Assembly: GCF_014195535.1 (NCBI RefSeq)
Contig: NZ_JACIBY010000003.1
Coordinates: forward strand, 1-64,000
DNA length: 64,000 bases
Source: Runella defluvii
GTDB lineage: Bacteria; Bacteroidota; Bacteroidia; Cytophagales; Spirosomataceae
Direction: 5' to 3'
Shown: positions 31,509 to 46,690 of the stretch, piece after piece
Numbering within the stretch: the first letter of the stretch is position 1
Layout: every line of letters starts with the position of its first letter
Notes under the pieces: model-generated
Database searches by the model: none
Told to the model about the DNA's origin: nothing
Seen by the model: only the letters and a program-made list of their open reading frames with translations
Translations under genes and position numbers: made by a program

Positions 31509-32093
31509 TTAGTTTTTACCCGTCATTTGTCGCTTTCGCAACTTGCTCAAAAACTCGGGTGTAATTCCCAAATACGACGCAATGTACTGCTGTGGCACGC
31601 GGTTGGGTAGGGTTGGGTAGCGTTTCAAAAATTCCTCTAATTGTTCCATGGCCGAATAAGATACCGTGCGGAGCAATCGGGCTTGAATAACGGCCAAGTG
31701 GCGTTGAATCATCAGGCGAAACATACGTTCTAGTTTAGGGACGCGCTGGAGCAATTCGTCTTTAGATTCCCGAGAAAGTACCAACAACTCGCAGTCTTCG
31801 AGCGCCTCAATCGTCATTTGGCTGGGGGTTTGGTACTCAAAACTGCTAATATCGCTCACCCACCAATCTTCAACGGCAAACTCCAAGGTGAGTTCGGTGC
31901 CGTCTTTGTCAGTAAAATATTCTCGAATACACCCTTTAATGACATAGGCTTCAAAATGGCAGACATCGCCTGCTTGCAGTAGCACCGTTTTTTTGGGATA
32001 AGTTTTCCATTTCAAACAGTCGGCGACCACTTGGGCTTCTTCTTCCGTAAGCTGAACAAAGCGGGAAATATATTGATGAAGTTGTGAGTGCAT
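31509..32093 (-). CDS. Crp/Fnr family transcriptional regulator
   Basis: 194-residue regulator: an N-terminal cyclic-nucleotide-binding-like barrel (KTVLLQAGDVCHFEAYVIKGCIREYF, ELTLEFAVEDWW), a long dimer helix, and a short C-terminal helix-turn-helix (VPQQYIASYLGITPEFLSKLRK). The degenerate effector pocket is typical of Bacteroidota Crp/Fnr proteins of this length. It is divergent from the aldo/keto reductase gene 100 bp away, which may be its target. Confidence 0.87.
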   Translation of the reverse strand: MHSQLHQYISRFVQLTEEEAQVVADCLKWKTYPKKTVLLQAGDVCHFEAYVIKGCIREYFTDKDGTELTLEFAVEDWWVSDISSFEYQTPSQMTIEALEDCELLVLSRESKDELLQRVPKLERMFRLMIQRHLAVIQARLLRTVSYSAMEQLEEFLKRYPTLPNRVPQQYIASYLGITPEFLSKLRKRQMTGKN

Positions 32094-32193
32094 TTTTTCT
32101 TTAAAGAATTTCTTGTTCTAGTTCAATTTTTATTTGATTGATAAACCCGACTTTTGCGCATCGTTTTTAAAATCAACGCAAAAATAACACACT

Positions 32194-33189
32194 ATGGCTT
32201 TTTTACCTTCTCCGCAGCGTTACGACGCCATGGAATACCGCCGATGCGGCAAAAGTGGCATCAAACTTCCTGCCCTTTCGTTGGGCTTGTGGCACAATTT
32301 CGGTGGAATCGACCAGTTCGAAAATGCCCGAAACATAATCACACTAGCGTTTGATAAAGGCATTACCCATTTTGATTTGGCCAACAATTATGGCCCGCCT
32401 GCGGGATCAGCAGAGGAAACGTTCGGTCGAGTTTTGAAAAAAGACCTGATGCCTTACCGCGACGAAATGATTATTACCACCAAAGCAGGCTATTATATGT
32501 GGCAAGGCCCGTACGGCGAATGGGGTTCTAAAAAATACTTGGTATCGAGCCTCGACCAAAGCCTGAAGCGCATGGGCTTGGACTACGTGGATATTTTTTA
32601 TCACCACCGCCCCGACCCCGAAACACCTTTGGAAGAAACCATGGCAGCCTTGGATTTGATTGTTCGTCAGGGGAAGGCGCTTTACGTGGGTATCTCAAAT
32701 TACAACGCCGCCGAAACCGAAAGGGCTGTAAAGATGTTACGTGAAATGGGTACACCTTGCTTGGTGCACCAACCGAAATATTCGATGTTTGAACGTTGGG
32801 TGGAAGGTGGCCTCCTCGATGTATTGGAACAAAACGGCGCGGGTTGCGTTGCGTTTTCGCCCTTGGCTCAAGGATTGTTGTCCAATAAGTACTTGAAGGG
32901 CATTCCGTCTGACTCAAGAGCGGCTTCGGGACGTGGAAATGGAGCGTTGGAAAGTGGCCGTATCACGGAAGATAAACTTAATCAGGTGCTTCAATTGAAC
33001 GAAATTGCCCAACAAAGAGGCCAAAACTTAGCCCAAATGGCGTTGGCATGGATACTAAAAGACCCGCGCATTACTTCGGTAATTTTGGGCGTTAGTAAAC
33101 CCGAACAGCTCACAGATTCGTTGAAATGCCTTGAGAATAAGGAGTTTTCGGCGGAGGAGTTGCAGAAGATTAATCAAATTTTAGGCTAA
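32194..33189 (+). CDS. aldo/keto reductase (YghZ/Gpr-like)
   Basis: 331-residue NADPH-dependent reductase of the AKR fold. The N-terminus YRRCGKSGIKLPALSLGLWHNFG is that of the YghZ/L-glyceraldehyde-3-phosphate reductase group. The catalytic tetrad is visible as D and Y in FDLANNYGPPAGSAEE, K in TTKAGYYMW and H in IFYHHRPDPETP. Cofactor contacts are in FSPLAQGLLSNKYL and VILGVSKPEQL. A Crp-type regulator is divergent upstream. Confidence 0.9.
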   Translation: MAFLPSPQRYDAMEYRRCGKSGIKLPALSLGLWHNFGGIDQFENARNIITLAFDKGITHFDLANNYGPPAGSAEETFGRVLKKDLMPYRDEMIITTKAGYYMWQGPYGEWGSKKYLVSSLDQSLKRMGLDYVDIFYHHRPDPETPLEETMAALDLIVRQGKALYVGISNYNAAETERAVKMLREMGTPCLVHQPKYSMFERWVEGGLLDVLEQNGAGCVAFSPLAQGLLSNKYLKGIPSDSRAASGRGNGALESGRITEDKLNQVLQLNEIAQQRGQNLAQMALAWILKDPRITSVILGVSKPEQLTDSLKCLENKEFSAEELQKINQILG

Positions 33190-33198
33190 TATTTAATG

Positions 33199-33268
33199 GA
33201 ACACAGATTGAACGGATAAAACGGATTTTTATCAGTAGTTATCTGTTCAATCCGTTAAATCAGTGTTC
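33199..33268. repeat. palindromic intergenic repeat (AACACTGATTTAACGGATT type)
   Basis: GAACACAGATTGAACGGAT at the left and ATCCGTTAAATCAGTGTTC at the right are near-perfect reverse complements. This word family is frequent between genes in Bacteroidota. It fills the gap between the reductase and the sugar dehydrogenase gene. Confidence 0.7.
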
Positions 33269-33307
33269 TAATTTTAACTTATTAAACAAAAGAAAAACAA
33301 CTTACAA

Positions 33308-34498
33308 ATGAAAAAAACAGCACTTTTTTCAATGGTATTTGGCACATTGGCGTACGCTTCGTGGGGTCAAACTGAACCAGTTGAAACAAAAGCTCCCAAT
33401 TCTACCTACAAATCGGCCTTTGCTGGACAAACCCGAATTGGTGGCGTAAAAACCCAAACACCGTATGAGTTCAAGGTACTTTCGGAAGGCTTGACGTTTC
33501 CTTGGGGCGTAAAAAGCTTGCCAGACGGACGTTTGATTATCACCGAAAAAGCGGGGAATTTACGTATTGCCAAAGCCAACGGCGAATTGAGCAAGCCGAT
33601 TACGGGACTTCCTGCCGTAAATACCAGTGGTCAGGGTGGACTTTTGGGAATTACCATCGACCCTAATTTTGACAAAAACCGAATGATCTATTGGACGTTC
33701 GCCGAAAATTTTGACGGTGGCACGCTTACTTCGGTAGCGAAAGGAAAACTTTCAGCCGATGAGACAAAAATTGAAGGGGCAACGGTCATTTACCGTGCCA
33801 CGCCTGCCCACAAGGGAAATCTTCACTACGGAGGCCGTATTTTGTTTGATAAAAAAGGCGATTTGTTTGTGAGTACAGGCGAGCGCTCCGACATGGTAAC
33901 CCGCCCTCAAGCGCAACAATTGAACTCTAGTTTAGGAAAAATTGTCCACATTACTACCGACGGAAAACCCGTTGCCAATGGCCCATTCGCCAGCACGTCG
34001 GGAGCCAAACCAGAGTTGTATTCGTACGGACACCGCAACGTGCAAGGGCTTACATTTAACCCTGTTTCGGGCGATTTGTGGTCAAATGAGTTTGGCCCAA
34101 GGGGCGGCGACGAAATCAACCGTGTGCAGTCGGGTAAGAACTACGGTTGGCCTGTGATTACTTACGGAATCGAATACAGTGGGAAGCAGATTGGAGAGGT
34201 GATTCAGCAAAAAGAAGGGATGGAGCAACCTGTTTATTATTGGGACCCATCGGTTTCGCCAAGCGGAATGACGTTTTACAGCGGTGACATGATGCCTGAG
34301 TGGAAAAATAACCTATTTGTGGGTTGTTTGAGCGGGATGCACATTGCGCGTTTGGTGATTGAAAACAACAAAGTGGTTGGAGAGGAGCGTCTTCTTTCGC
34401 AAGAATACCAACGTTTCCGTGACGTAACACAAGGCAAAGACGGGGCTATCTACGCCGTGACTGACCAAGGGCGTTTGTATCGTATTTCTAAGAAATAA
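33308..34498 (+). CDS. PQQ-dependent sugar dehydrogenase, paralogue 2
   Basis: 396-residue paralogue of the protein at 17209-18459, with the same order of GSDH motifs: FPWGVKSLPDGRLIITEKAG, GQGGLLGITIDPNF, LHYGGRILFDKKGDLFVSTG, GHRNVQG, NEFGPRGGDEINRV, NYGWPVITYGIEY. Unlike paralogue 1 it has a normal cleaved signal peptide (MKKTALFSMVFGTLAYASWGQ) with no lipobox, so it should be soluble in the periplasm. Both share the start of the mature region (GQTRxGGVKTxTPY). Closed by an AT-rich hairpin. Confidence 0.87.
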   Translation: MKKTALFSMVFGTLAYASWGQTEPVETKAPNSTYKSAFAGQTRIGGVKTQTPYEFKVLSEGLTFPWGVKSLPDGRLIITEKAGNLRIAKANGELSKPITGLPAVNTSGQGGLLGITIDPNFDKNRMIYWTFAENFDGGTLTSVAKGKLSADETKIEGATVIYRATPAHKGNLHYGGRILFDKKGDLFVSTGERSDMVTRPQAQQLNSSLGKIVHITTDGKPVANGPFASTSGAKPELYSYGHRNVQGLTFNPVSGDLWSNEFGPRGGDEINRVQSGKNYGWPVITYGIEYSGKQIGEVIQQKEGMEQPVYYWDPSVSPSGMTFYSGDMMPEWKNNLFVGCLSGMHIARLVIENNKVVGEERLLSQEYQRFRDVTQGKDGAIYAVTDQGRLYRISKK

Positions 34499-34516
34499 TT
34501 TCTTGCCTTTTTGTGC

Positions 34517-34572
34517 AACCATATAAGACCATATAAGTTTTTCTTATAATCCCTTATATGTCTTATATGGTT
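34517..34572. terminator. AT-rich inverted repeat between convergent genes (copy 1)
   Basis: AACCATATAAGACCATATAAG (34517-34537) pairs with 34553-34572 except for one extra base. It sits between the + sugar dehydrogenase and the end of the minus-strand OmpA operon, so it can serve both. A related longer element lies at 45722-45800. Confidence 0.65.
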
Positions 34573-34585
34573 ATTTTTTGTGAAG

Positions 34586-35617
34586 CTAATTGACTTTCAC
34601 AAACTCTACCCGACGGTTTTCAGCTTTTCCTTCAAAAGTAGTGTTAGGCGCAAGCGGCTTGGTTTCGCCGTATCCTCTGGTGCTCAATCGACTGCCGTCG
34701 ATGCCCATTGTAATCAATTGATTCTTGACCGAAAAGGCGCGCGCTTCTGAAAGCTTGAGGTTGCTGGTGTCGTCCCCATCAGCATCTGTATGTCCACCGA
34801 TTTCTACTTTTAGGGCCGAATTTTCTTTCAATATTTTGGCAATGGCGTTCAATTCCCCCATCGAGGTAGGCTTGATGATTGATTTGTTAACGTCGAAATT
34901 GATACCGTGCGAAATGTATTTTCCGTCGGTAAAAGCTTTCCCAATTAAGTTTTGGTCTCCCCCTGCGGCCAATTTGAAATTTTTAAAAGCCATGGGTTTT
35001 CCGTCGCTGTAATCTCCGCTGACCAGCAAGGTAGTAGCTTTAAACTCCACCTCAGGGACGGTCAATACCCGATTTTGGTTGGCATAAACTTTAATTTGTC
35101 CTCCCTTGACCGCAACAGCGTAATGAATCCATTTGTTGAAGAAGTCATCTCCCAATAAGTCCTTTGGATTATCGCCATTGAGCTGGGTACCTGGGCCATA
35201 AAAAGTGGTGTAATCGCGGGAAGTTTCTATTGTTACGCTGGCTTCATCGCCATTCATAAGCATAATGCGAATGCCTGGGTTGCTGTCATAACCCGCATCC
35301 AAATAAGCATCAAATTCGATGGTGTATTCTTTGGGCAAATAAGCGGGCGTCTTTACCCTTGGAGCTAACTTGGTATAAAATTTTGTGATAAAAAATGCTT
35401 TTTCGTCCCCCGATTTGTTGACGACTGCTTGCCCTTCTTTTAGTTTCCAATGAGTACCAAATTCGCCTTCTTGACTATCGGTAAAATCATCTGAAAAAAT
35501 AATTTTATCACCTGCCACAAAATCATAGTTTTGATAGGCGCGCAGGTCTTGAGCGAATAGCCCCCTGCCCCCCATTGGGGGAATTGTTAGGAGTAAGAAA
35601 ATAATTACTTTTTTCAT
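34586..35617 (-). CDS. OmpA-domain envelope protein, last gene of the six-gene operon
   Basis: 343 residues. The signal peptide carries an embedded GC-rich repeat (IPPMGGRGLFA just before the cleavage site). Residues ~25-220 look like a concanavalin/LamG-type beta-sandwich (DFVAGDKIIFSDDFTDSQEG, YTIEFDAYLDAGYDSNPG, WIHYAVAVKGGQIKVYANQN). The C-terminal ~110 residues are an OmpA peptidoglycan-binding domain (LKVEIGGHTDADGDD, LSEARAFSVKNQL, GYGETKP, KAENRRVEFVK). It would sit in the outer membrane or periplasm, gripping the cell wall. Its paralogue, at 40963-42069, is the first gene of the same operon. Confidence 0.82.
   Translation of the reverse strand: MKKVIIFLLLTIPPMGGRGLFAQDLRAYQNYDFVAGDKIIFSDDFTDSQEGEFGTHWKLKEGQAVVNKSGDEKAFFITKFYTKLAPRVKTPAYLPKEYTIEFDAYLDAGYDSNPGIRIMLMNGDEASVTIETSRDYTTFYGPGTQLNGDNPKDLLGDDFFNKWIHYAVAVKGGQIKVYANQNRVLTVPEVEFKATTLLVSGDYSDGKPMAFKNFKLAAGGDQNLIGKAFTDGKYISHGINFDVNKSIIKPTSMGELNAIAKILKENSALKVEIGGHTDADGDDTSNLKLSEARAFSVKNQLITMGIDGSRLSTRGYGETKPLAPNTTFEGKAENRRVEFVKVN
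35561..35583. repeat. 23-nt GC-rich repeat inside the OmpA signal peptide
   Basis: The + strand reads CCCCCTGCCCCCCATTGGGG and onward. Its reverse complement is identical over 23 bases to 61321-61343, which lies in the signal peptide of the HupE-like gene in a different reading frame. Shorter relatives lie at 48508-48526 and 49299-49362. Confidence 0.85.
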
Positions 35618-35665
35618 GTGATTTGATTGTTTTTTGATTTTTAAAACTTGCTAAGAGTTTGGGAA

Positions 35666-36676
35666 TCAATTGGCTTTCATAGCTCTGAATTTTCCATTTA
35701 GGCGTCCTCGGGCTTTTTGACCATTGGCATCCCCTGCATACACAATGGTGTTGATATAGCCTTCTATGTAGGTGCTGTCCTCATGCGTAATCCTAACACC
35801 TCCGTCACAAATCATATCTTCGTTGGTGTCTCCACAACCTACTCCCAGCTGAAGACCAACGACCATATTGACCCCACTTTTTTCGGCGCTTAAATCAAAC
35901 GAACCAGCTCCTAATCCTCGATAGGCAATGGCAAGCAGGTAGTTGCCGTTCACGATGTTTTTACTCCCATTGTCTTCTGTGTCAATAGCTTCAAGGGCTA
36001 AGTTGCTAAAGCGAAGGACTGAGAGGTTTCGATTTGGGTCATAGATGTACATGGCGCTGGCCGTAAGCCCATTGATAGAGTACCCTTTCTGTTTAATGGC
36101 GTTTACCGCTTGTTGGGGTAGCATTTTGCTATCAATACTTGTCAGTTTTGTAACAAACTTGGCATTGATGATGCCCATATCTGGTATGTGTAGCGTAAAA
36201 AAGGTTTCGTTTTGGGAAAAATAAATAGTTTTAAGGAGTTGTACTTTGGGCAAATTGGGCTCTGTTGGGGTTAAATCAACCGATATAATCATTTTTTTGT
36301 TGGCGGGTGCAGCAGCGGGAGCTGTGTAAGAAGCAGTCAGACCGTTTGAAGCGATTCGACCACCTCCTTCCACAATCCGCCAGTTAGTTACCCGATAAGG
36401 ACTTGTTTCTCCGCTCGGTAGTTTAATGGTCTGTCCTTTACGGCGGAGTTCAGGCGTCTCGTCGTCGGGGTTAGCTTTAGGTAGAATAAACAAGTCGATG
36501 CTTAATTGACAAGATTCAGAGGCTTCTAATAGCCCCTTGTCCGAAACCAAGGAAAGCTTAAATGCTTTACTGGCAATGACTTCGTCCCACATTTCTTTGG
36601 TCCAGCCCTCGGGAGTTTGCCCTCTAACTTCCAATAAGGAGATGCTTAAAAGGAGAAAAAAAATCACTCTTTTCAT
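35666..36676 (-). CDS. hypothetical exported protein (operon gene 5)
   Basis: 336 residues; I recognise no family. A signal peptide is clear (RVIFFLLLSISLLEVRGQ). The mature part begins TPEGWTKEMWDEV and is beta-rich, with an immunoglobulin-like stretch near residues 55-135 (YRVTNWRIVEGGGRIASNG, TASYTAPAAAPANKKMIISV). The cysteines GCGDTNEDMIC may form a disulphide. The C-terminus (TYIEGYINTIVY, ARGRLNGKFRAMK) resembles the end of the next upstream protein (FIEGTFEG, IKGHFKVRR), suggesting a shared terminal domain. The gene is 19 bp from 36696 and 48 bp from the OmpA gene. Confidence 0.7.
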   Translation of the reverse strand: MKRVIFFLLLSISLLEVRGQTPEGWTKEMWDEVIASKAFKLSLVSDKGLLEASESCQLSIDLFILPKANPDDETPELRRKGQTIKLPSGETSPYRVTNWRIVEGGGRIASNGLTASYTAPAAAPANKKMIISVDLTPTEPNLPKVQLLKTIYFSQNETFFTLHIPDMGIINAKFVTKLTSIDSKMLPQQAVNAIKQKGYSINGLTASAMYIYDPNRNLSVLRFSNLALEAIDTEDNGSKNIVNGNYLLAIAYRGLGAGSFDLSAEKSGVNMVVGLQLGVGCGDTNEDMICDGGVRITHEDSTYIEGYINTIVYAGDANGQKARGRLNGKFRAMKAN

Positions 36677-36695
36677 AAATATTGATTGTTTTGGA

Positions 36696-37967
36696 TTAAT
36701 ACCTATCTTTTTGCCTTCTTACTTTAAAATGCCCTTTGATATGAGCGTCGGGTCGTTTTTGTTGGTCTGTGCCAATGGGTTCATGGATTTTGTAACCCAC
36801 TTTAACGTCCCCTTCGAATGTACCTTCGATAAAGCCACCTACGGGGTCATAACTGGTGATTTTGATGGTAACTCCGTTGGAGTCAAAGCTATATTCGCAG
36901 CCATTCCAACAATTTATGCCTCCACGAAAAGAAGATTTTTCACTCCCTGGGAAGGTCTCAAACTGCCCCGTTTGTCGAATAAATGGAATCGTAATATCCA
37001 GAAAACCAGCACTGGTATAGGTTTTAAAATCGGAGTCTTCGGAAATTAAAATACGAGTGATGGCATTTTCGGTAATGGCACGATTGGGATGATTGTTTCG
37101 TAAATACCCAAACTGATTATCCACCGATGGCTTTAAACGAACGGTTCGCTGGTTAAAATCTCCGCCGTTGAGCGTGAATTCAATCTCGTTAGTTCCTGCC
37201 AAAGGCTTTGCCAGCGTTTTCTCCATCGGAGGTGCTTGGCTTGGGTTAGGAATAGGGATTTTATTTTCACCCATCAAGTCTTTAAGTGCTTTTAAATCAG
37301 TGTTTTTTAAGAAAAAATCAAGTACTGTCGGTGACCCTTTCACCAAGATTAATATACTTTGGATTTGGGTCATGGGAACGGTAAAACTGGGCGGCATCTC
37401 AAATCGATACAGCGTTTGGCCATCGTCAAGCGGGGTTGTTTTAGCAACTTTCCAACCTTTTCCCATGCACAAGCGAGCGTCGTGCGGACCCACCATCACA
37501 AAGGGAAATGGAGGTATTGGCTTGGGATGAAGGGAACCTTGAGTAGTCAGCTCGTTTTCGAACGCATTTACATAAACGTCTATTTCACATTCCGTTTCGT
37601 CCATCATTTTTTGGATGCCAGCCATGTCAACGGCAATGGTGCGCCACTTGTTCTTTTCATCCTCGCTTACATTTTTACGCACGTATCGAATTTTAAACTC
37701 ATGCGAAAAAAATGAGCTGTAGCCCACGCTACCATTATGAAACCACGTGTCGCCGTCGGTATCTGATTCGCGTTCGATTGCCCAATTTTCCAACTGATGT
37801 GGAAGCGCATTTTTGATAATGCTTTTCACCCGTTGGCTTTCGGCAGTTTCAATGGCCAAAGCGGGGCGGCCTTCTTGGGCATGGGCCTGAAAACAAACGA
37901 AGACTATTCCCCAATGAAAGAGAAAAGACGCTTTAAGCTGAAGAAAACGGTAATAACTCTGAGGCAT
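36696..37967 (-). CDS. hypothetical exported protein (operon gene 4)
   Basis: 423 residues without a recognised family. A signal peptide ends near FQAHAQEGRP. The first half has mixed helix/strand (VKSIIKNALPHQLENWAIER, WRTIAVDMAGIQKMMDETE); a proline-rich joint lies near residue 245 (IPIPNPSQAPPMEKT). The second half is beta-rich with INCWNGCEYSFDSNG and ends FIEGTFEGDVKV...HIKGHFKVRRQK, like its downstream neighbour. The N-terminal half may be a ligand-binding domain and the C-terminal part a surface or assembly domain; both are guesses. Spacing to its neighbours is 21 and 19 bp. Confidence 0.7.
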   Translation of the reverse strand: MPQSYYRFLQLKASFLFHWGIVFVCFQAHAQEGRPALAIETAESQRVKSIIKNALPHQLENWAIERESDTDGDTWFHNGSVGYSSFFSHEFKIRYVRKNVSEDEKNKWRTIAVDMAGIQKMMDETECEIDVYVNAFENELTTQGSLHPKPIPPFPFVMVGPHDARLCMGKGWKVAKTTPLDDGQTLYRFEMPPSFTVPMTQIQSILILVKGSPTVLDFFLKNTDLKALKDLMGENKIPIPNPSQAPPMEKTLAKPLAGTNEIEFTLNGGDFNQRTVRLKPSVDNQFGYLRNNHPNRAITENAITRILISEDSDFKTYTSAGFLDITIPFIRQTGQFETFPGSEKSSFRGGINCWNGCEYSFDSNGVTIKITSYDPVGGFIEGTFEGDVKVGYKIHEPIGTDQQKRPDAHIKGHFKVRRQKDRY

Positions 37968-37988
37968 AGTATTGAAAATAAATAAATG

Positions 37989-40022
37989 TCAATCAACTCC
38001 TGGGGTAAATTTCCAGGCCTGTGAAGGTGTGAGTGGGGCAATTCCTTTGGCGGCAGAGATGCCAAATTCAATTTTCCCCTCGCTTTTTAAGCCCAAATCA
38101 CCGCCGTTAGTCGAAATTTTTCCCGACAATGAAGCCGTAGCTTCCCCCTTTAAACCTGCATCCACAATCCCTTTATTACCAGTGATGGTGATAAATTCGA
38201 CGACCTTTCCACCTACGCTCAAGCCACCTACTTCTTTTTCAGCTTTTAGTCCCGCTTGTAATTCGAGTTCATCTTCGCCCCAATCGTCTCCCCACGTTAG
38301 CTCTAACCCGAGCGTTCCTTTGACCCCTGGGCTGGGGGTATTGATTGAAAAGTTGATTTTTTCGCAATTCGCTTCCGATTCTATCACTCCCGCGTCGATA
38401 TTCCACGTAGGCAGGGGGCATTCGTCGTCATCTTCCCAAAGTTCGAGCTTGTGAGTTCTCATCAATCGTTGTACTTGTTCCGTAATGACTGAGTCCTCCT
38501 CAATTTTCTCTTCTACTTCGCAAAATGTATTGGCGGCATTGCTTGCCCACGCAGCCCAACTGGCATGGGCCAACCCATATTGGTACATCAGTTGGGCGGC
38601 TTCTTTGCGGCGCGTATTGGCCAACTGATGGAGCTGGGGGTTTTTGAGTGCCATCACGTAGCGGTCGGTTTTGGACTCGTACGACCTTATGTCGTTGGTA
38701 GTGTTTTTATACAAACTCAGCCATGCTGAATAAAAATACTGGTGGTGATTATTCAACAACTTTTGAACATTTTGACAGTACTTATTACGCTCTTGCTCTT
38801 GGCAGCCTTCATTATCGCCGCACTTTTGGGCACTGGTTTCGTAAGCTCGTTTGGCAGCCATAAACTTTTCGTTCATTTGCAAGTAAGACCCCTTTGTTTC
38901 GTTGTTAAAACGGCGCGTGAAGGAAATGGAACGATTGCTAAAGAGCTGTTCATAATAGTCAAGGGCTGCCAGCTCTTTGGTATAAGGGTAAGGGACAACG
39001 ATATGATTATCAGTTACTTTTACTTTGGCTTGTTCTTGCCATTGCGTTTCGAGGGTACTCAACGAAGCCATCACGCGCTCAATTCGTTGGTGATTTTCGT
39101 CCACCAACGAAGTGTGAAAGCCTTCAATAATCCGTTCGTTTTGCATCGTTTTGAGCAAGTTACTACTGTATTCGGCGGGAGGTTCAGGAAAATGAAGCCC
39201 ACTGGCGGCGTTTCCTCCAAAAGGCCGCTCTTCGTAATCTATGAGGGGAAGCACGTCGTTTACGGCGGGTAAAGTTGTGCTTTCGTTCATTCCTTCGTTT
39301 TGATTGACTTTCGCTATTTTTTTAGCCTGGTCATCCTTTTTTTGTATGGCACCTGCAAATGTCATTTTTTTAGACCAAGCCAGTTTACGCCAGCGGTCTG
39401 CTTCTGTATTTTGGCCTCGTGCTTCTGCAATCGTCGCTAAACCATTCATCGCATGGTAGAGGTTGGGCGCGATTAACAGTGCATTTTCAAAGTGTTTTTT
39501 CCCCGTTGTAAAATCCCCTACCGAAGTAGCAACCCAACCGAGGTTAGCCAGTAATGTAGGGTTTTGAGGTGTTTGTTTTCGGGCATATAACAAAATTTTG
39601 TACGACAATAAATAGGCGTCGATGTTCTTGAGGCATACGCCTAAATTGCGGTAAATAGTCGTGTCAATTCGGTTTCTTTCGGCAGCCATTGCATACAAGT
39701 AAACGGCGGCATACGAACTTCCTTTCAAGAAAAAAAGAGTGGCTAAATCGGTTAACTCACTGCCATTGGCGCTACTGATGTTTCGGTCTAGCTCTATTCT
39801 AAAATTTCTATTTTTTTTATCTAAAAACGCCACAGCAATCCCTTTAGATTGGAAAATCAATTTGGTGAGAACCTCCTCCGTAGGGGTTTTGATTTGGTCA
39901 TAATGCAAGCTGCTATTTTCTTTGAGCGGGCGTTCTTCGGAATCTTTGACCGCATCCCACACGTACTGTGCTTGTACACTTACTCCAATTAAGGTTAGAT
40001 AAAAGACGAATAAAGTTTTCAT
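37989..40022 (-). CDS. exported TPR protein with beta-rich C-terminal domain (operon gene 3)
   Basis: 677 residues, the largest product of the operon. A signal peptide (TLFVFYLTLIGVSVQAQ) is followed by TPR-like helices at about 90-220 (YRNLGVCLKNIDAYLLSYKI, NPTLLANLGWVATSVGDFTT, GLATIAEARGQNTEADRWRK). A long helical middle contains CGDNEGCQEQERNKYC. The last ~115 residues are a repetitive glycine-rich beta region (GTLGLELTWGDD, GLKAEKEVGGLSVGGKVVEF, ASLSGKISTNGGDLGLKSEG) that resembles half of a barrel or a beta-solenoid. It could be the scaffold of an envelope complex with the two OmpA proteins. No close family is recognised. Confidence 0.72.
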   Translation of the reverse strand: MKTLFVFYLTLIGVSVQAQYVWDAVKDSEERPLKENSSLHYDQIKTPTEEVLTKLIFQSKGIAVAFLDKKNRNFRIELDRNISSANGSELTDLATLFFLKGSSYAAVYLYAMAAERNRIDTTIYRNLGVCLKNIDAYLLSYKILLYARKQTPQNPTLLANLGWVATSVGDFTTGKKHFENALLIAPNLYHAMNGLATIAEARGQNTEADRWRKLAWSKKMTFAGAIQKKDDQAKKIAKVNQNEGMNESTTLPAVNDVLPLIDYEERPFGGNAASGLHFPEPPAEYSSNLLKTMQNERIIEGFHTSLVDENHQRIERVMASLSTLETQWQEQAKVKVTDNHIVVPYPYTKELAALDYYEQLFSNRSISFTRRFNNETKGSYLQMNEKFMAAKRAYETSAQKCGDNEGCQEQERNKYCQNVQKLLNNHHQYFYSAWLSLYKNTTNDIRSYESKTDRYVMALKNPQLHQLANTRRKEAAQLMYQYGLAHASWAAWASNAANTFCEVEEKIEEDSVITEQVQRLMRTHKLELWEDDDECPLPTWNIDAGVIESEANCEKINFSINTPSPGVKGTLGLELTWGDDWGEDELELQAGLKAEKEVGGLSVGGKVVEFITITGNKGIVDAGLKGEATASLSGKISTNGGDLGLKSEGKIEFGISAAKGIAPLTPSQAWKFTPGVD

Positions 40023-40032
40023 AATGAGTGTC

Positions 40033-40947
40033 TTATAGTTCCTTGAGCCAAACTTCGGCTATTTTACGCAATTCCATAGTCGCAGGTTTACCCATACGAA
40101 AGCACTGTTTCCAGATAGAAGATTTGCGGCGATAGTCGTCGTTTACGAATTCACGACGACCATTTTTTTGTTCAACCTTCGCCTCAAAATCAACGTCGGT
40201 CGATTCATCCAAAAACTGCTGAAGCTGTGCTTTGATGTTTGCTTTGTAATTTTTTTTGCCGTCGATTTCGGCATTTTTTTCTACAATAGTACCAATGCGC
40301 TGATTGACCTCTGATTTGGCTCGGATGGTGGCATACTTTTTGGCAAACTCTGTTTTGTTGGTTTGAAACAACGGTTTAATCGCCAGCATTGCTTCCAAAT
40401 CTCCCACCATTTGTTTAATTCCCTTCATTTCGGCGGTGTAAGTGGCTTTTCCTTCGGGGGTGTCACCGTACGGATTGGGCTTTTCTAAGACAGGTTTTAG
40501 TCCATCTAGCATCTGTTGTTGTCCTTTAAAATACTCGTCGTTCAGTATTCCAGCCTTGATCGTCTCGGTGATTTCGCTGAGCGATTCGTTGTATTTTTCG
40601 GCATAGAATTCTTTTAGTTCGGACGAATTAGGGTCGGTACCTTGTTTTTGAGCATCCAAACTTTTTCCTAAATCAGCGACAAAAGCCGAGGAGTTGACGT
40701 ACGTTTTGGCAAACGTTCCTACGACACGGGCCATGGCGGCTTGTTCGGCAGCGGGCAATTTACTGCCAAGGTCTTTCACTTCTTTTGGAATGTAAAATTG
40801 AAAACTGGGAAAGGTATTCATGGCAGCAAGCTCCACAATTTTTTCTTTAAATTCGGGTACGTTGACTTTATATTTTGCCAAATCATCCCAAAAACGAAAG
40901 GCTGAAAAAGTGACTAAAATGATGACTGTATAAGTGGTTTTTTTCAT
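40033..40947 (-). CDS. hypothetical exported helical protein (operon gene 2)
   Basis: 304 residues, unrecognised. An N-terminal hydrophobic stretch (TYTVIILVTFSAF) could be a signal peptide or a membrane anchor. The remainder is Lys/Glu-rich and predicted to be almost all helix (VPEFKEKIVELAAMNTFPSF, LKEFYAEKYNESLSEITETI, NYKANIKAQLQQFLDESTDV). It looks like a periplasmic coiled-coil or helical-bundle component. It is 15 bp from the first OmpA gene and 10 bp from the TPR gene. Confidence 0.68.
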   Translation of the reverse strand: MKKTTYTVIILVTFSAFRFWDDLAKYKVNVPEFKEKIVELAAMNTFPSFQFYIPKEVKDLGSKLPAAEQAAMARVVGTFAKTYVNSSAFVADLGKSLDAQKQGTDPNSSELKEFYAEKYNESLSEITETIKAGILNDEYFKGQQQMLDGLKPVLEKPNPYGDTPEGKATYTAEMKGIKQMVGDLEAMLAIKPLFQTNKTEFAKKYATIRAKSEVNQRIGTIVEKNAEIDGKKNYKANIKAQLQQFLDESTDVDFEAKVEQKNGRREFVNDDYRRKSSIWKQCFRMGKPATMELRKIAEVWLKEL

Positions 40948-40962
40948 GATTAGGGGTGATTT

Positions 40963-42069
40963 TTAGAGTTTTACAAATTCTACGCGACGATTTTCGGCTT
41001 TTCCCTCAAAAGTAGTATTGTCACTAATGGGCTTGGTTTTGCCGTAACCTTTGGTGGTAAGTTTGGTGCCATCTGCTCCGAGCGAAACCAGTTTTTCTTT
41101 CACGGCATCGGCTCTTTCTTGGGATAGTTTTAGATTGGCCGCTTCGTTGCCATCGGCATCGGTATGCCCACCAATTTCAAATTTTAATTCGGGGTGTTCT
41201 TTCATCATCGCGATCATCGTATTGAGCGTTCCCATGCTTTCGGGTTTGATGGTCGCCTTGGCAACGTCAAAATGGATGCCCCGTGCGACAAATTTCCCAT
41301 CGGTCGTTAGTGTTTTATAGGGGTCAACGCCTCCAGCAGCAATGCGAAAATTTTTCAAGAACAACTGCGAACTCATTTCGTACGTACTTCCATCGGCCAC
41401 TATCTCGATGTTAAAGGCTTGTCCACTTTCGATAGGGGCGTTCAAAACGCGTTCGCTGTTTAGATAGACCTTCAATGATTTTTCGGTAACCGCCATCGAA
41501 ACGTGCACCCATTTGTCGCAGAGGTCTTCATAAATATATTCGCTGTCTGCTATTTTTTTGCCACCCTTGTATTGCCCTTTGAAAGATTTAAACTCAACAT
41601 TACCAATGGAATAGAGGTAAATGCTTTCTTCAAAGTCGCCGAGTTTTTCTCGTACGCTGTCCCATTCTTTGTCGGTAGCAAATTGAATCAGTAATTTGTC
41701 GCCATCGCTGTTGCCGTCGCCGATGGCTTGTGCAAAAGGTTTGGTGTTGTGCCGCCACAAATAATCAAACTCGACCGTGAATCGGCTGGTACCGATAAGG
41801 TTTTTATTTTTGGCCATGCGAGGATAAGCTTTGGGGGAAGCATCCAAGAAACCCATGACCAATTCGCCGTTAATTTTGGCGATTTCGATTTTCCCACTGC
41901 TAATCATCCAATGCGATGGAATTTCGTCAGAACTTTCGCCCGTAAAGTTGTCTTCAAACAATACCTTATCCCCTGGGACAAAGTCAAATTTTGCGTACGA
42001 TTTTTCCGAAACTTGGGCAAATAATGGGCTGTAACCAAGGAAAATTGCAAAGAGAAGGTTTTTTTTCAT
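40963..42069 (-). CDS. OmpA-domain envelope protein, first gene of the six-gene operon
   Basis: 368 residues. The signal peptide (NLLFAIFLGYSPLFAQ) precedes a beta-sandwich domain (FDFVPGDKVLFEDNFTGESS, RFTVEFDYLWRHN, DKWVHVSMAVTEKSLKVYLN) and a C-terminal OmpA domain (LKFEIGGHTDADGNE, LSQERADAVKEKL, GYGKTKP, KAENRRVEFVKL). It is clearly paralogous to 34586-35617 across its whole length. The frame is open to 42183, but the ATG at 42069 starts the signal peptide. The PAS-LuxR regulator gene is divergent 121 bp away. Confidence 0.84.
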   Translation of the reverse strand: MKKNLLFAIFLGYSPLFAQVSEKSYAKFDFVPGDKVLFEDNFTGESSDEIPSHWMISSGKIEIAKINGELVMGFLDASPKAYPRMAKNKNLIGTSRFTVEFDYLWRHNTKPFAQAIGDGNSDGDKLLIQFATDKEWDSVREKLGDFEESIYLYSIGNVEFKSFKGQYKGGKKIADSEYIYEDLCDKWVHVSMAVTEKSLKVYLNSERVLNAPIESGQAFNIEIVADGSTYEMSSQLFLKNFRIAAGGVDPYKTLTTDGKFVARGIHFDVAKATIKPESMGTLNTMIAMMKEHPELKFEIGGHTDADGNEAANLKLSQERADAVKEKLVSLGADGTKLTTKGYGKTKPISDNTTFEGKAENRRVEFVKL

Positions 42070-42145
42070 TGTTTTAAAAGTAGGTTTAAACGACGTTCTA
42101 AAACTAGGAAAAGCCCTTGCGCCTGTCAATGGCACATTTGTGCTA

Positions 42146-42173
42146 TTGAATTGCTCGAAAATACCTATATTTC
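42146..42173 (+). promoter_or_regulatory. possible promoter of the PAS-LuxR regulator
   Basis: A TTG at 42146-42148, a 17-base gap and TATATTTC at 42166-42173 are one mismatch from the TAnnTTTG box, 17 bases before the ATG at 42191. The 121-bp divergent gap should also hold the promoter of the OmpA operon, which I could not pinpoint. Confidence 0.35.
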
Positions 42174-42190
42174 GTAAAAACACCTTGACT

Positions 42191-43000
42191 ATGAGCGATT
42201 TGCTACGGTTTCGAAATGAGATTAAACAGATTTATAAAAAGCTGAAAAGCTTTTATGAATATTTGCCGAGAGATTCGGCGTTGGATTCGTACATCGACCA
42301 ATTTTCATTTACCGAAACTATTGAGCGCATCTATGCCGTAGGGCCGTATTGTTGGTTTATTTCGGACATGAAAAGCGCCAAATGGGTGAAAGTCGGAGGA
42401 GCCATTGAGCAAATGACGGGCTATTCAAAAGACGAACTTACCAACGCTTCCTTTATTCAGGCAGCTCGCTTCACTACCCCCGAGCAACTCATGGCGACGG
42501 TTCAATCGGCCGAGCTTTTTTGGCACTATTTTTATTCGCAACCCGTCGATTACCGTAAAAATGTTAAATCGTCGCATACGTATCAGTTTTTGCGTAAAAA
42601 CGGTACTTCATTTCATGCGCTTCAACAAAGCTCCACGTTGTTTTTTGATAACTTGGGCAACGGTGTCTTTCAATTTGACCTCATTACCGACATCTCTCAC
42701 CTGGACCCAATCCCCAAACTTCGTTTTTTTCTACTCGACACGAATAATCCTGAACACATGAAAAATATTCCCATACACGAAGGGATTATTCGTAAAACCC
42801 AATCACTTCCCATTAGCCCTTCCGAAAAACGGGTACTTGAGCTGATTGCCCAAGGAAAAAGTATTAAAGTAATTGCGGCCGAGCTTGGCATTAGTGAAAA
42901 TACGGTCAAGCACCACCGCACCAATATGTTTGTCAAATGTGAGGTCAAAAACATGGCCGAACTGACCGCTAAAGCATTAACAATGGGCTGGTTTGAGTAA
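42191..43000 (+). CDS. PAS-domain LuxR-type transcriptional regulator
   Basis: 269 residues. An N-terminal helical stretch is followed by a PAS-like domain (YCWFISDMKSAKWVKVGGAI with EQMTGYSKDEL, then YQFLRKNGTSFHALQQSSTL), and a C-terminal LuxR/GerE helix-turn-helix (SPSEKRVLELIAQGKSIKVI, ISENTVKHHRTNMFVKCEVK). No receiver domain is present, so it probably senses a ligand or redox state through PAS. It is transcribed divergently from the six-gene envelope operon and is its prime candidate regulator. The ATG at 42191 is favoured over the one at 42140. Confidence 0.83.
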   Translation: MSDLLRFRNEIKQIYKKLKSFYEYLPRDSALDSYIDQFSFTETIERIYAVGPYCWFISDMKSAKWVKVGGAIEQMTGYSKDELTNASFIQAARFTTPEQLMATVQSAELFWHYFYSQPVDYRKNVKSSHTYQFLRKNGTSFHALQQSSTLFFDNLGNGVFQFDLITDISHLDPIPKLRFFLLDTNNPEHMKNIPIHEGIIRKTQSLPISPSEKRVLELIAQGKSIKVIAAELGISENTVKHHRTNMFVKCEVKNMAELTAKALTMGWFE

Positions 43001-43103
43001 CATAATTGATGGAATTTGAGGATGTGTTGATGTTCCAAAAGTAGTGGGTGAAAAAATGTTTTTTCTCCACCAAAAGGGGGAATTTTGTTTGGTAGGTAAT
43101 GCC

Positions 43104-43111
43104 TAATTTTG
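43104..43111 (+). promoter_or_regulatory. TAATTTTG promoter -7 box
   Basis: TAATTTTG matches TAnnTTTG 21 bases before the histidine kinase ATG at 43133; TTTTG at 43083-43087 lies 16 bases upstream as a possible -33 element. Confidence 0.5.
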
Positions 43112-43132
43112 AGCAGCATAAGATGCATCCAT

Positions 43133-45106
43133 ATGAAACAGATTTTGTCGGATTTACACAGAGTTTTACTAGCTTTGATTTTGTTAAATAATATAGCAAA
43201 TGCCCAAACGGGTGATTTAAAGCCACTTTTGGAAAAGTTGAAAGCGTCGAAGCCCGATACCAATAAAGTACGTTTGCTCAATAAAATTGGCGACGAATAT
43301 GCTTACAACGACATCAAAACCGCTCGCCAATATTATAAAGATGCCTATGAGTTGAGTAAAAAACTGGATTATTTGAGAGGAATCATTCGGTACTTTTCGA
43401 GCGAAGGCGAGTTGCTCAATATAGAAGGCAAATACGACCAAACCATGTTGCTTCTGCGTGAAGGAGTGAAGCTGAGTATCGACCGTAAAGACCGTATGCG
43501 CGAGGGGATAATGTACGAAAACATGGGGAACACATTCCAAGAAATGCAACGGCTCGATTCGGCCGCCACGTATTATTTCAAAGCTTTACCCATATTTGAG
43601 GGATTTCAAGACAGTTTGAAAATGGCCAATGTGTACAGCGATTTAGCTAATGTTTTTACGCAAACAGATAAACAAGAAAGAGCATTAAGTTACATCAATC
43701 GAGCTGTTGAAATCAGTAAAAAATTGGAAGATGGGTATTATTTGAGCCATTTGGTCAATAAAGAAAATATTTTGTGGAAACTCAAACGAAGAAATGAGGC
43801 CGAAAAGGTCAATAATCAAATCATTGCTTTGGCTCGAAAACTAAATGATGTGGTTGATATGGCAGATGCCTTGCAAAATCAATGCAATCATGACGTAGAA
43901 AGGAAGCACTACGAAAAATTGCTGAATCATGCTCAAGAACTGGCAAAACTGAATCCTCAACTGCAATCTGCTGAGCGAACCACTTTGGCAGATTATTGGC
44001 TTTCGGTGGCGTACTATTTCAATCGAAACTACCCAAAATCGTATAATTATATTAATGAAGCCGTAATAAAAGCAGAGAAACTGCAAAACACGGAGCACTT
44101 ACAGCAGTATTATACTCACTATGCTAAAGTGATTTTAGCTTATAAAAACGACCCTATTTTAGCCGAAAAATTCAATAATTTGTCGGATTCACTTCGAGAA
44201 GTAAGTTTCAACAAAAACATTTTAAAAACCACCAAAGAGCTCGAAACCAAATATGAAACCGATAAAAAGGAGAGGTCGATTCAGCAACTTTCGATAGAAA
44301 ACCTAAACAAAAAACGACAGATTAGCCTCCTTATTTTTTCTGTCATTTTGCTTTCGGTAGCGCTGATTTTCTTTTGGCTTTGGATGCAAAACCGTAATCG
44401 TATTCGTAAGCAGGAGCAAATCCTACACGAACAAAAGCTCAAGCAACTCGAAAACGAAAAGCAGCTTATGGCCAGCCGAGCAGTTTTGCAAGGGCAAGAC
44501 GAAGAACGAAGCCGCTTGGCAAAAGACTTACACGATGGCTTGGGTGGAATATTATCAAGCGTAAAATATTCATTTCAAAACATGAAACAGTCATTCATTT
44601 TACAATATGAACATGCTTTGGCCTTTGAGCGTAGTATGAATCTACTCGACGAATCGCTAGCAGAATTGCGCCGTGTTTCGCACAATATGATGCCTGAGAG
44701 CTTGGCGAAATTGGGGTTAGAAGACGCCCTAAAAAATTACATTCAAACCTTGGACGAAAACTCAGAAATCAATTTTACGTACCAAAGCTTTGGGTTAGAG
44801 GATGTGGAGCTCGAAAATATCTACAAAACGACGATATTTAGGGTGATTCAAGAGCTAACAACCAATATCATACGGCACTCAAATGCCAAGGAGGCTTTGG
44901 TACAGGTAATGGTAAAGGATAATCAAATTAATATTACGATTGAGGACGATGGTGTTGGGTTTGAACCGCAACAAGTAAATAAACAACCAAGCATGGGTGT
45001 ACAAAATCTGTACAATCGAATCGACTACTTGAAAGGAAAAGTTGATTTGCAAACGGGCTTGGGTAGTGGTTGTTCGTATTATATTGAAATACCGTTGACG
45101 AAATGA
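43133..45106 (+). CDS. TPR-containing sensor histidine kinase (NarL-partner type)
   Basis: 657 residues. A signal peptide (VLLALILLNNIANAQ) leads to a periplasmic TPR array (about 25-370), one membrane segment at ~396-418, a coiled coil, and a HisKA_3 kinase core with the phosphorylated H467 in RSRLAKDLHDGLGG. The HATPase domain has NIIRHSNAKEALVQV (N box) and IEDDGVGFEP (G box). It should sense a periplasmic signal through TPRs and phosphorylate the response regulator whose gene overlaps by 4 bp. The ATG at 43133 gives the signal peptide. Confidence 0.9.
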   Translation: MKQILSDLHRVLLALILLNNIANAQTGDLKPLLEKLKASKPDTNKVRLLNKIGDEYAYNDIKTARQYYKDAYELSKKLDYLRGIIRYFSSEGELLNIEGKYDQTMLLLREGVKLSIDRKDRMREGIMYENMGNTFQEMQRLDSAATYYFKALPIFEGFQDSLKMANVYSDLANVFTQTDKQERALSYINRAVEISKKLEDGYYLSHLVNKENILWKLKRRNEAEKVNNQIIALARKLNDVVDMADALQNQCNHDVERKHYEKLLNHAQELAKLNPQLQSAERTTLADYWLSVAYYFNRNYPKSYNYINEAVIKAEKLQNTEHLQQYYTHYAKVILAYKNDPILAEKFNNLSDSLREVSFNKNILKTTKELETKYETDKKERSIQQLSIENLNKKRQISLLIFSVILLSVALIFFWLWMQNRNRIRKQEQILHEQKLKQLENEKQLMASRAVLQGQDEERSRLAKDLHDGLGGILSSVKYSFQNMKQSFILQYEHALAFERSMNLLDESLAELRRVSHNMMPESLAKLGLEDALKNYIQTLDENSEINFTYQSFGLEDVELENIYKTTIFRVIQELTTNIIRHSNAKEALVQVMVKDNQINITIEDDGVGFEPQQVNKQPSMGVQNLYNRIDYLKGKVDLQTGLGSGCSYYIEIPLTK

Positions 45107-45717
45107 TTGAAATATATTTGGTAGAAGACCATCCATTGGTTACAGAAGGTATCAAAGCCATTTTCGAAAAAGAAAGTGGGATGAATTGCACCCAAAGTTT
45201 TGAACTGGGTAACGATTTACTGGCGAGATTGCCATTTCACCAGCCTAATGTCATTGTGATGGATATTAATCTGCCTGACGTTAACGGTATTGACCTTTGT
45301 AAAATGGTTAAAGAAAAATACCCACGGATTTATATCATTGCGCTGAGCATTAATAATGAGAAAGGAATCATTAAGAAAATGATGGAAAACGGAGCTAGTG
45401 GCTATATTTTGAAAGACGCAGCCAAATATGAAATTGTCGATGCCGTAAAAACTGTCCTTCAACGGAAAACCTATTTTAGTGTATCCGCTTCGAATACCCT
45501 CAAAAAACCTGATGAACGAAAAATTCCTGCGCTGACTCGCCGAGAAAAAGAGATATTAATCAAAATTGCGGATGGGTTAACAAATCAGCAAATAGCTGAA
45601 TTACTGTTTGTTGATGTTAGTACGGTGAATAGCCACCGAAAAAACATGCTTTCCAAGTACGATGTGCAAAACACGGCTCAATTGATAAAATTGGCGATTA
45701 CTGAAAAGCTGATATGA
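45103..45717 (+). CDS. NarL/FixJ-type response regulator
   Basis: 204 residues: receiver domain with phospho-acceptor D54 (VIVMDINLPDVNG), acidic pair in VEDHPLV, conserved K in YILKDA, then a LuxR-type helix-turn-helix (LTRREKEILIKIADGLTNQQ, VDVSTVNSHRKNMLSKYDVQ). It is translationally coupled to the histidine kinase (ATGA overlap). Adjacent target candidates are the envelope operon at 34.6-42 kb or the downstream catabolic operon. Confidence 0.93.
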   Translation: MIEIYLVEDHPLVTEGIKAIFEKESGMNCTQSFELGNDLLARLPFHQPNVIVMDINLPDVNGIDLCKMVKEKYPRIYIIALSINNEKGIIKKMMENGASGYILKDAAKYEIVDAVKTVLQRKTYFSVSASNTLKKPDERKIPALTRREKEILIKIADGLTNQQIAELLFVDVSTVNSHRKNMLSKYDVQNTAQLIKLAITEKLI

Positions 45718-45721
45718 GTTT

Positions 45722-45800
45722 TTTTGCAACCATATAAGACATATAAGGCCATATAAGTTGTTTTCTTATAATCTCTTATATGACTTATATGGTTGCAAAA
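45722..45800. terminator. AT-rich inverted repeat after the response regulator (copy 2)
   Basis: TTTTGCAACCATATAAG (45722-45738) is the exact reverse complement of 45784-45800, and inner CATATAAG/CTTATAT words extend the pairing. It shares AACCATATAAG and CTTATATGGTT with 34517-34572. It lies 4 bases after the stop codon and probably ends the two-component transcript. Confidence 0.65.
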
Positions 45801-45862
45801 TTAAAAAATGATTGATATTGCGCACTAATGCCCACATTTTTCCTATTTTAACTTCTTTTTAT

Positions 45863-45904
45863 TATTCAATTTTGTGTTGAAATAAATCAATTCAAAATTG
45901 AATA
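45863..45904. promoter_or_regulatory. palindromic operator before the hydroxycinnamate operon
   Basis: TATTCAATTTTG (45863-45874) is exactly inverted at 45893-45904, and the inner TGTTGA/TCAATT extend the symmetry. The right arm ends on the base before the ATG at 45905. A 42-base palindrome at that position suits a repressor that blocks both transcription and initiation; MarR-type repressors control the analogous Cou and Fer clusters, but no marR gene is in view. Confidence 0.6.
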
Positions 45905-46690
45905 ATGATTGACTTCCCATCTCCCTCAGAATTTCTTAAAATAACCGTACTCGAAAGCACCCTTTTGGTAGGACTCAATCGACCCGAGAAACGGAATGCT
46001 TTCAACGATGCCCTGCTGCTAGACTTAGAAAAAGTAATGGATGCGTTACCTGCTTCCATTCGGTGCATGGTTATTTATGGCGAAGGGAAACATTTTTCCG
46101 CAGGGCTTGATTTATCCGAATTAACAGAAAGAAATGCTTCAGAAGGAGTGTATCATTCCCGTATGTGGCATCGGGTGTTGGACAAGGTGCAGTATGGCCG
46201 AGTGCCCGTGATTGCAGCCTTGCACGGTGCCGTGGTAGGCGGAGGCTTGGAACTTGCGAGTGCTTGTCATATTAGAGTTGCGGATGCTACAACCATGTAT
46301 GCCTTGCCTGAGGGACAGCGGGGGATATTTGTTGGGGGAGGGGCGTCGGTGCGTGTACCCAAACTGATTGGATTGGCACGTATGACCGACATGATGTTCA
46401 CAGGGCGGGTGTATAAAGCCGAGGAAGGCGAGCGAATTGGACTTGCTCAATATTTAGTAGAAACAGGAAAAAGCCTAGAAAAAGCCCTTGAACTGGCAGA
46501 AAAAGTCGCTTCCAACGCAGGAATGACCAATTTTGCCTTGGTACAGGTGCTGCCAAGAATTGTGGATGCTTCGCCAGAACAAGGGCTGCTGATGGAATCA
46601 CTGATGGCTGCCATTGCCCAAAGTGCCCCCGAAGCCAAAGAAAGATTGCGTGATTTTTTGGAAGGACGAGCTAAAAAAGTGGGGGAATGA
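45905..46690 (+). CDS. crotonase-family hydratase (hydroxycinnamoyl-CoA hydratase)
   Basis: 261-residue enoyl-CoA hydratase/isomerase. The oxyanion-hole segments are GKHFSAGLDLSEL and ALHGAVVGGGLELASACHIR; the second acidic region is ALPEGQRGIFVGGGASVRVP. It should hydrate the side-chain double bond of a hydroxycinnamoyl-CoA. A lyase activity giving an aldehyde (as in Ech) is possible, but the neighbouring dehydrogenase and amidohydrolase favour hydration only. First gene of the operon behind a palindromic operator; it overlaps the CoA ligase gene by 4 bp. Confidence 0.85.
   Translation: MIDFPSPSEFLKITVLESTLLVGLNRPEKRNAFNDALLLDLEKVMDALPASIRCMVIYGEGKHFSAGLDLSELTERNASEGVYHSRMWHRVLDKVQYGRVPVIAALHGAVVGGGLELASACHIRVADATTMYALPEGQRGIFVGGGASVRVPKLIGLARMTDMMFTGRVYKAEEGERIGLAQYLVETGKSLEKALELAEKVASNAGMTNFALVQVLPRIVDASPEQGLLMESLMAAIAQSAPEAKERLRDFLEGRAKKVGE

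Follow-up and report, generated by a model that had tools for sequence, protein, structure and literature searches.

A nine-gene island of Runella defluvii as a probable fusion of two regulated envelope modules

OmpA/Pal-type proteins (PF00691; for example YiaD and the NCBIfam outer-membrane integrity protein CHU_0125) carry a C-terminal OmpA domain with conserved Asp and Arg residues and an expected anchor role, and the type IX secretion system (T9SS) component PorE and similar proteins bring tetratricopeptide repeats (TPRs) and OmpA parts together within one Bacteroidota envelope module. On the side of regulation, two-component systems of the HisKA_3/LuxR type are known with a shared divergent promoter, and in the excludon, a concept from Listeria, a long leader runs antisense to a neighbor gene. 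Here, we compare with these systems an 11.1-kb island (34573-45718) in the first 64,000 nucleotides of contig NZ_JACIBY010000003.1 of Runella defluvii (GCF_014195535.1), a stretch that we call the window. The island holds an operon for six exported proteins (genes A to F in reading order) and three regulator genes (G, H and I), and we find it reasonably likely that the operon was fused from two regulated envelope modules, is co-regulated at two sites named op1 and op2, and serves envelope upkeep or attachment.

The island and its sub-blocks in relatives

The operon spans 34586-42069 on the minus strand, and the gaps between its genes measure 15, 10, 21, 19 and 48 bp from A to F, which agrees with an earlier note on this DNA that had described six tight minus-strand genes with gaps of 10-48 bp. 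The same note had taken these six genes as the unit, but the island edges take in three regulator genes too, up to 45717, for a content of exactly nine genes (F-E-D-C-B-A, G, H and I):

40963-42069, minus strand: A, exported protein of 368 aa with a jelly-roll-like part and an OmpA domain (PF00691), paralog of F
40033-40947, minus strand: B, exported helical protein of 304 aa with a conserved C-terminus, unnamed family
37989-40022, minus strand: C, exported protein of 677 aa with TPRs, a helical part and a Gly-rich beta tail
36696-37967, minus strand: D, exported two-domain protein of 423 aa with an invariant NCW..CE motif (19-member alignment including the window copy)
35666-36676, minus strand: E, exported protein of 336 aa with an immunoglobulin-like stretch and a C-terminal domain probably common with D, unnamed family
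34586-35617, minus strand: F, exported protein of 343 aa with a jelly-roll-like part and an OmpA domain (PF00691, 82.2 bits), whose orthologs adjoin H-type kinases
42191-43000, plus strand: G, PAS plus LuxR-type regulator (ATG at 42191; GerE 57.7 bits; PAS_3 below cut-off)
43133-45106, plus strand: H, histidine kinase with TPRs, one membrane segment, HisKA_3 and HATPase_c (ATG at 43133)
45103-45717, plus strand: I, response regulator with a LuxR-type DNA-binding domain (Response_reg 88.6 bits, GerE 58.7 bits)

Searches used longer frames for two regulators (G from 42185; H from 43124, three residues longer), the genome protein searches scored few candidates per genome, and gene calls in relatives are mechanical open frames. 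On this scope, the complete order A-B-C-D-E-F was found in none of the 221 other genomes of the family that were searched, so that the single obligatory six-protein complex proposed earlier is not supported, and the conservation of sub-blocks alone fits a fusion of two modules. Judged by gene neighborhood, H-I is the usual partner of D-E-F: it is divergent from D-E-F in G101 and G102 (with two small genes between in G101), and it occurs with one small gene, D and F in G202, with F in G181 and G195, and with F and a partial D in G147, where A-B lies elsewhere in the genome. A is divergent from G in G064 and G097, as is C-A in G162, while E-F and F-D are found in G106 and G153, respectively. Together with the state of the island site in G162 (see below), these loci argue for D, E, F and probably B going with H-I and for A and C going with G, and they argue against one obligatory six-protein machine.

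The loci inspected comprise one set of 20 chosen for A, D, E or F and another chosen for B (one of them for C); free of that choice are a list of H-type places, 20 loci found by H alone, and the operator scans of the own genome and of 222 genomes described further down. At least 61 H-type places were found in 55 of the 222 genomes, with up to five candidates per genome scored. Seven of the 61, the window's included, are full length with at least 44% identity, and all seven have an F-type gene while D and E are variable; one further place outside the seven reaches 44% over residues 362-656 only. An immediate divergent neighbor with an export-like start stands at 16 of the 20 loci found by H alone, which were hand-picked for spread from the 61 places and come about half from one genus, versus 128 of 330 other divergent genes in the loci. 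Over all H-type loci, most of which entered the set on account of B, D, E, F or C, the count is 30 of 36. The window is the exception to this pattern, as G stands beside H instead. H-I type pairs are also found opposite the C-type protein loci of G146 and G413. As a side observation, the cargo runs of L141 (7410-17992) and L142 (6632-14973), from two other genomes, each interleave two C-type TPR proteins with other exported proteins opposite an H-I type pair.

An A/F-type gene shares a run with B in L113, L122 and L125 and is located 3 kb from it in L110 (four of the 20 loci chosen for A, D, E or F), and the combination is also seen in L070, which was fetched by B. In L122 (8417-13570) and L125 (6416-11516), both from another genus, a sensor kinase (772 aa), an F-type OmpA protein and a small exported protein form one run with B, which links B independently to F-type proteins and to a kinase of another type. 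Signaling genes make up 38 of the 207 neighbors within three genes of B and 25 of the 297 genes at a greater distance (19 of 35 scored loci; Fisher p 0.0015), a count that takes related loci separately and leaves four of 39 loci unscored (the gene call hid B in three, and G162 is without B).

The edges of the island follow from the same-genus genome G165, in which the site is empty: window 31510-34572 is contiguous there with 45719 onward, and a repeat found at both island edges in the window is present as a single copy. The two copies were placed by alignment with each other and, for the left one, with the single copy of G165:

34515-34572, no strand: left copy of an imperfect palindromic edge repeat
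45726-45796, no strand: right copy of the edge repeat

The edge repeat is built as an imperfect palindrome from CATATAAG/CTTATATG units. The empty site is compatible with a gain of the nine-gene block in the window genome as well as with its loss in G165. None of the nine island genes is an integrase or transposase, a search of 72,556 plasmids gave no match for the island DNA, B or D, and Rfam gave no match at gathering scores over 34000-46500.

G162 has the same site with both flanks, where C-A, op1 and G are kept, F is reduced to about 35 codons at the 3' end, and there is no counterpart to window 40026-40929 (B) or to E, D, op2, H and I. Because this F remnant persists, the comparison shows that the ancestor of G162 had F at the island site, and a joint loss of B, D, E, H and I with it is the simpler reading. 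A 248-aa frame at the left edge of the island place in G162 (L038, 7253-7999) has no match in the window set.

In the F tree, the window groups with three g33 genomes (support 100/98), while the H tree places it with two g9 genomes (95/98) and D forms its own branch. This conflict between the F and H trees suggests that the second module, the one with H-I, is itself a mosaic.

Operators and promoter boxes

The control sites proposed for the two modules lie in the intergenic regions on either side of G:

42099-42106, minus strand: A-side box TAGTTTTA of the -7 type, one mismatch to TANNTTTG, 22 nt from op1, probable A-F promoter
42129-42146, no strand: op1, 18-bp palindrome ATGGCACATTTGTGCTAT between A and G, probable G operator
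43036-43043, minus strand: cargo-side box TACTTTTG, 23 nt from op2, facing into G antisense
43067-43086, no strand: op2, CCACCAAAAGGGGGAATTTT, probable response-regulator operator
43104-43111, plus strand: kinase-side box TAATTTTG, 17 nt from op2, probable H-I promoter

Between cargo and kinase, op2 is conserved as CCNCCAAAAGGNGGAATTTT with at most two mismatches in all seven orthologous loci, and it is framed there by boxes at nearly constant distances. The kinase-side TANNTTTG box lies 17 nt from op2 in 7/7 (four exact, three with one mismatch), and the cargo-side TANNTTTG box is exact in 7/7, at 23 nt in six and 24 nt in one, where the chance of an exact box within a 16-nt span is 0.7%. TAnnTTTG is reported as the sigma-A -7 box of a flavobacterium (PMC9723704).

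In its own 8-Mb genome, op2 has two sites at up to two mismatches (43067 and C6:346446), both just upstream of H-type kinases, with one match in the reversed control; across 222 genomes, the scan at up to one mismatch gave 13 sites, eight of them at H-type kinases, versus one match in the control. The best op2 match upstream of H-type kinases has at most four mismatches in 18 of 36 cases versus 19 of 2000 stretches drawn at random from the same loci, and many distant H-type kinases have a looser form of op2 near CCNNNAAAANNNGGATTTT at about -110. The second site in the own genome belongs to another H-type kinase and regulator (L163, G000:C6:344403-346465; one mismatch in op2) with its own divergent run of exported proteins of 151, 149 and 307 aa, and the two H-type systems with nearly the same operator may cross-talk.

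The second palindrome, op1 (ATRGCACWTTTGTGCYAT), separates A from G in the four loci seen with this pair and has its only exact place in the own genome here; the A-side box is 22 nt off in all four (two exact, two with one mismatch). This goes some way toward the earlier proposal that the divergent PAS-LuxR gene perhaps controls the operon; the H-I pair in the same island had escaped that note. Elsewhere in the own genome, op1-like places with one or two mismatches lie inside an enzyme gene, beside another kinase-regulator pair, and between other genes. One such place (L173, G000:C4:127857; two mismatches) stands before two exported-protein genes, downstream of another kinase-regulator pair.

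In H, both HisKA_3 (34.3 bits) and HATPase_c (36.4 bits) score over cut-off, the N-terminus looks export-type by eye, and hydropathy places the membrane segment at residues 400-418 counted from 43124. Because of this start, the TPRs and the single membrane segment, the H sensor should face the compartment where A-F are predicted to act.

The exported proteins

All six products have an export-type N-terminus (short charged, then hydrophobic) without a lipobox Cys, as judged by eye and with a hydropathy rule; the export signals described earlier are thus borne out by eye, with B as the weakest. A and F are indeed full-length paralogs (36.8% identity over 375 columns, E 4e-73), and the PF00691 OmpA domain scores 82.2 bits in F and 77.1 bits in A against a cut-off of 27.2. 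D278 and R293 are kept in all 20 aligned members, with A and F among them, and we take them to be the diaminopimelate-binding pair equivalent to that of A. baumannii OmpA. A and F are very likely periplasmic or outer-membrane proteins that bind peptidoglycan. For the N-terminal halves of the family, PF06439 and Laminin_G_3 each match 12 of 20 members (E at most 0.1; best 7e-7 and 3e-5, respectively), and on A and F themselves the jelly-roll models are marginal, below the Pfam cut-off.

In line with the earlier note, which could name no family for the middle four, B, C, D and E stay below every curated Pfam and NCBIfam cut-off, with sub-threshold TPRs in C, and a PDB sequence search returned TPR proteins for C and nothing usable for B, D or E. 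The AlphaFold2 model of B from its single sequence has a mean predicted local distance difference test score (pLDDT) of 51.6 and was used only to call the protein helical. The B family is present in 35 of 390 genomes of the order, the own genome included. A scan of genome contigs with back-translated patterns gave 29 stretches for B and 31 for E, with no relatives among them. Searches with C, whole (best 7999 candidates) and with residues 400-677, found three close proteins each; distant C-type proteins were reached via one weak match, and a search with that protein gave matches in 12 of 241 genomes, chiefly across the TPRs.

The C-terminal domain of D is a beta-barrel in the predicted model (mean pLDDT 79.4); structure comparisons, in which the N-terminal domain was barely covered, found no clear known fold, with the TbpB-type barrel as an uncertain candidate. 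The homologs P0005, P0006 and P0007 are 77-83% identical to D. Three others (P0020, P0021 and P0022) share about 40% identity, and one of them comes from a Vicinamibacterales metagenome-assembled genome, which would be a cross-phylum transfer if that genome is sound. The Riean_0653 family (NF052634) matches all 19 members of the D alignment weakly and was rejected for D at 18.5 bits against a cut-off of 57.

Proposed working, alternatives and known systems

In the scenario that we favor, module 1 would have consisted of A(-C) divergent from G around op1, and module 2 of D-E-F, probably with B, divergent from H-I around one common op2. The block A-B-C|op1|G would then have entered D-E-F|op2|H-I at a point between D and op2, so that D-E-F is now cut off from op2 behind A-B-C; the single operon start would probably be at the op1 promoter, with op2 staying with H-I. 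H would sense the state of the envelope via its periplasmic TPR domain, and I bound at op2 would set the level of H-I and, in relatives, of the cargo, while G would act likewise at op1 from a cytoplasmic PAS signal. Once in the periplasm, A and F would grip peptidoglycan via their OmpA domains and present their jelly-roll domains, and in envelope upkeep or surface attachment they would be joined by B, C, D and E, which supply helical, TPR-scaffold and beta-domain parts; a physical complex of these proteins and its task are conjecture.

Several observations weigh against this reading. We infer the pairing of I with op2 and of G with op1, and with it the co-regulation, from position. The order of events is a parsimony argument: D-E-F|op2|H-I was seen at this chromosomal place in none of the loci, and for B, H and I in G162 a loss, as opposed to a gain, is only the simpler reading. 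The position of the window is left open by the I tree. Only one clean empty site was seen (G165), as G167 has the left flank and lacks the right flank in the stretch fetched. At op1, the G side has a one-mismatch box in only two of the four loci, the 160 bp upstream of A contain no exact TANNTTTG (the A-side box has one mismatch), and an exact box is found 67 nt upstream of B, inside A. At op2, four more distant H loci have the cargo box at 25 nt (three) or 46 nt (one) and no exact kinase-side box, five of the 13 op2-like sites are off H-type kinases (three in one kind of ~750-aa frame, two in other frames), and the G202 site, with two mismatches, falls outside the search of 222 genomes at up to one mismatch. 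The module to which B belongs is unsure, since it adjoins A in G147, is near F-type genes elsewhere, and stands alone with or without kinases in others. Finally, the common C-terminal motif of D and E claimed earlier has a profile comparison at E 9e-5 on its side, with a probability of only 59% over 134 columns.

If the fusion is set aside, the exported proteins might be sensory partners of the H TPR domain (a periplasmic ligand-binding protein or inhibitor) and not output machinery, which we consider somewhat unlikely. The TPRs of H seem to lie outside the membrane, a divergent exported neighbor of variable sequence is usual for H-type kinases, and B is enriched near signaling genes, with the limits of that count given above; such partners should be conserved, yet the cargo differs between closely related H loci, and two peptidoglycan anchors plus a 677-aa TPR protein would be much for a sensor accessory. 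A single envelope machine of all six products, held to peptidoglycan at two points, is plausible as an anchored complex, given one tight operon with export-type starts throughout, two peptidoglycan-type anchors, and the presence of the island as a whole in the window against its complete absence from the site in G165. We nevertheless judge it unlikely, as the full set recurs in none of the family genomes searched, sub-blocks occur apart with different regulators, and G162 has only A and C whole.

It would also be conceivable that the island is a decaying patchwork without joint function whose genes gathered at a recombination hot spot, as the conflicting trees, the presence and absence among sister species and the broken F in G162 could suggest; nine open frames with operon-like spacing and with operators and promoter boxes in place make this improbable. 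For op2 itself, a simple scan lists the site as terminator-like, with a short G+C stem followed by T, and it could thus form a hairpin in the leader RNA of the kinase (a terminator or attenuator) instead of a DNA operator. However, op2 lies upstream of the kinase promoter box, between two divergent boxes, and its orientation relative to the kinase is reversed in L163 and L164, so that we regard a hairpin as quite improbable.

Within the fused arrangement, the cargo-side box at 43036-43043 is intact and occupies the position where relatives place the cargo promoter, and no minus-strand terminator-like site was listed between 42069 and 43030. H-I activity might still fire the old cargo promoter of op2 leftward into A-F through a leader of nearly 1 kb antisense to all of G, switching the operon on and silencing G. 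We hold this excludon-type switch to be a doubtful extension of the fusion scenario; if true, either of two signals that exclude each other, H-I or G via op1, would lead to production of the same envelope set.

The edges of the unit are now exact, and it comes with two candidate regulator-operator pairs and with natural variants that carry none of it (G165), part of it (G162) or the full set (the window). Beyond this case of two regulated envelope modules possibly merged into one operon with both control sites kept, the loci point to a recurring class in the family, in which a TPR-sensor kinase with its regulator and one palindromic operator face divergent exported cargo that differs from one relative to the next. 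Should op2 be the site of I, the cargo of many such systems would be readable from sequence.

The possible likeness to an excludon lies in a minus-strand promoter box that faces through G toward A-F on the same strand. A report on Porphyromonas describes an antisense RNA that is controlled by a response regulator, an arrangement that differs from the island (PMC8757827). A and F share the C-terminal OmpA domain with CHU_0125 and YiaD but differ by their jelly-roll-like N-terminal half, by scores far below the equivalog cut-offs, and in being encoded with unnamed exported proteins beside transcription regulators. As names for A and F, the Pal lipoprotein (TIGR02802; 68.9 and 72.1 bits versus a cut-off of 125.35, and no Cys at the signal end) and T9SS PorE (NF052230; 65.4 and 73.1 bits versus a 600-bit cut-off, OmpA part only) were both rejected. 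The combination of TPR and OmpA parts recalls PorE and other such components, but the two sit in separate proteins in the island. H and I have the domains of HisKA_3/LuxR-type two-component systems, and in relatives a divergent promoter pair frames one central palindrome; H-I differs by its apparently periplasmic TPR sensor, by its exported cargo and, in the window, by the displacement of this cargo behind a second regulator.

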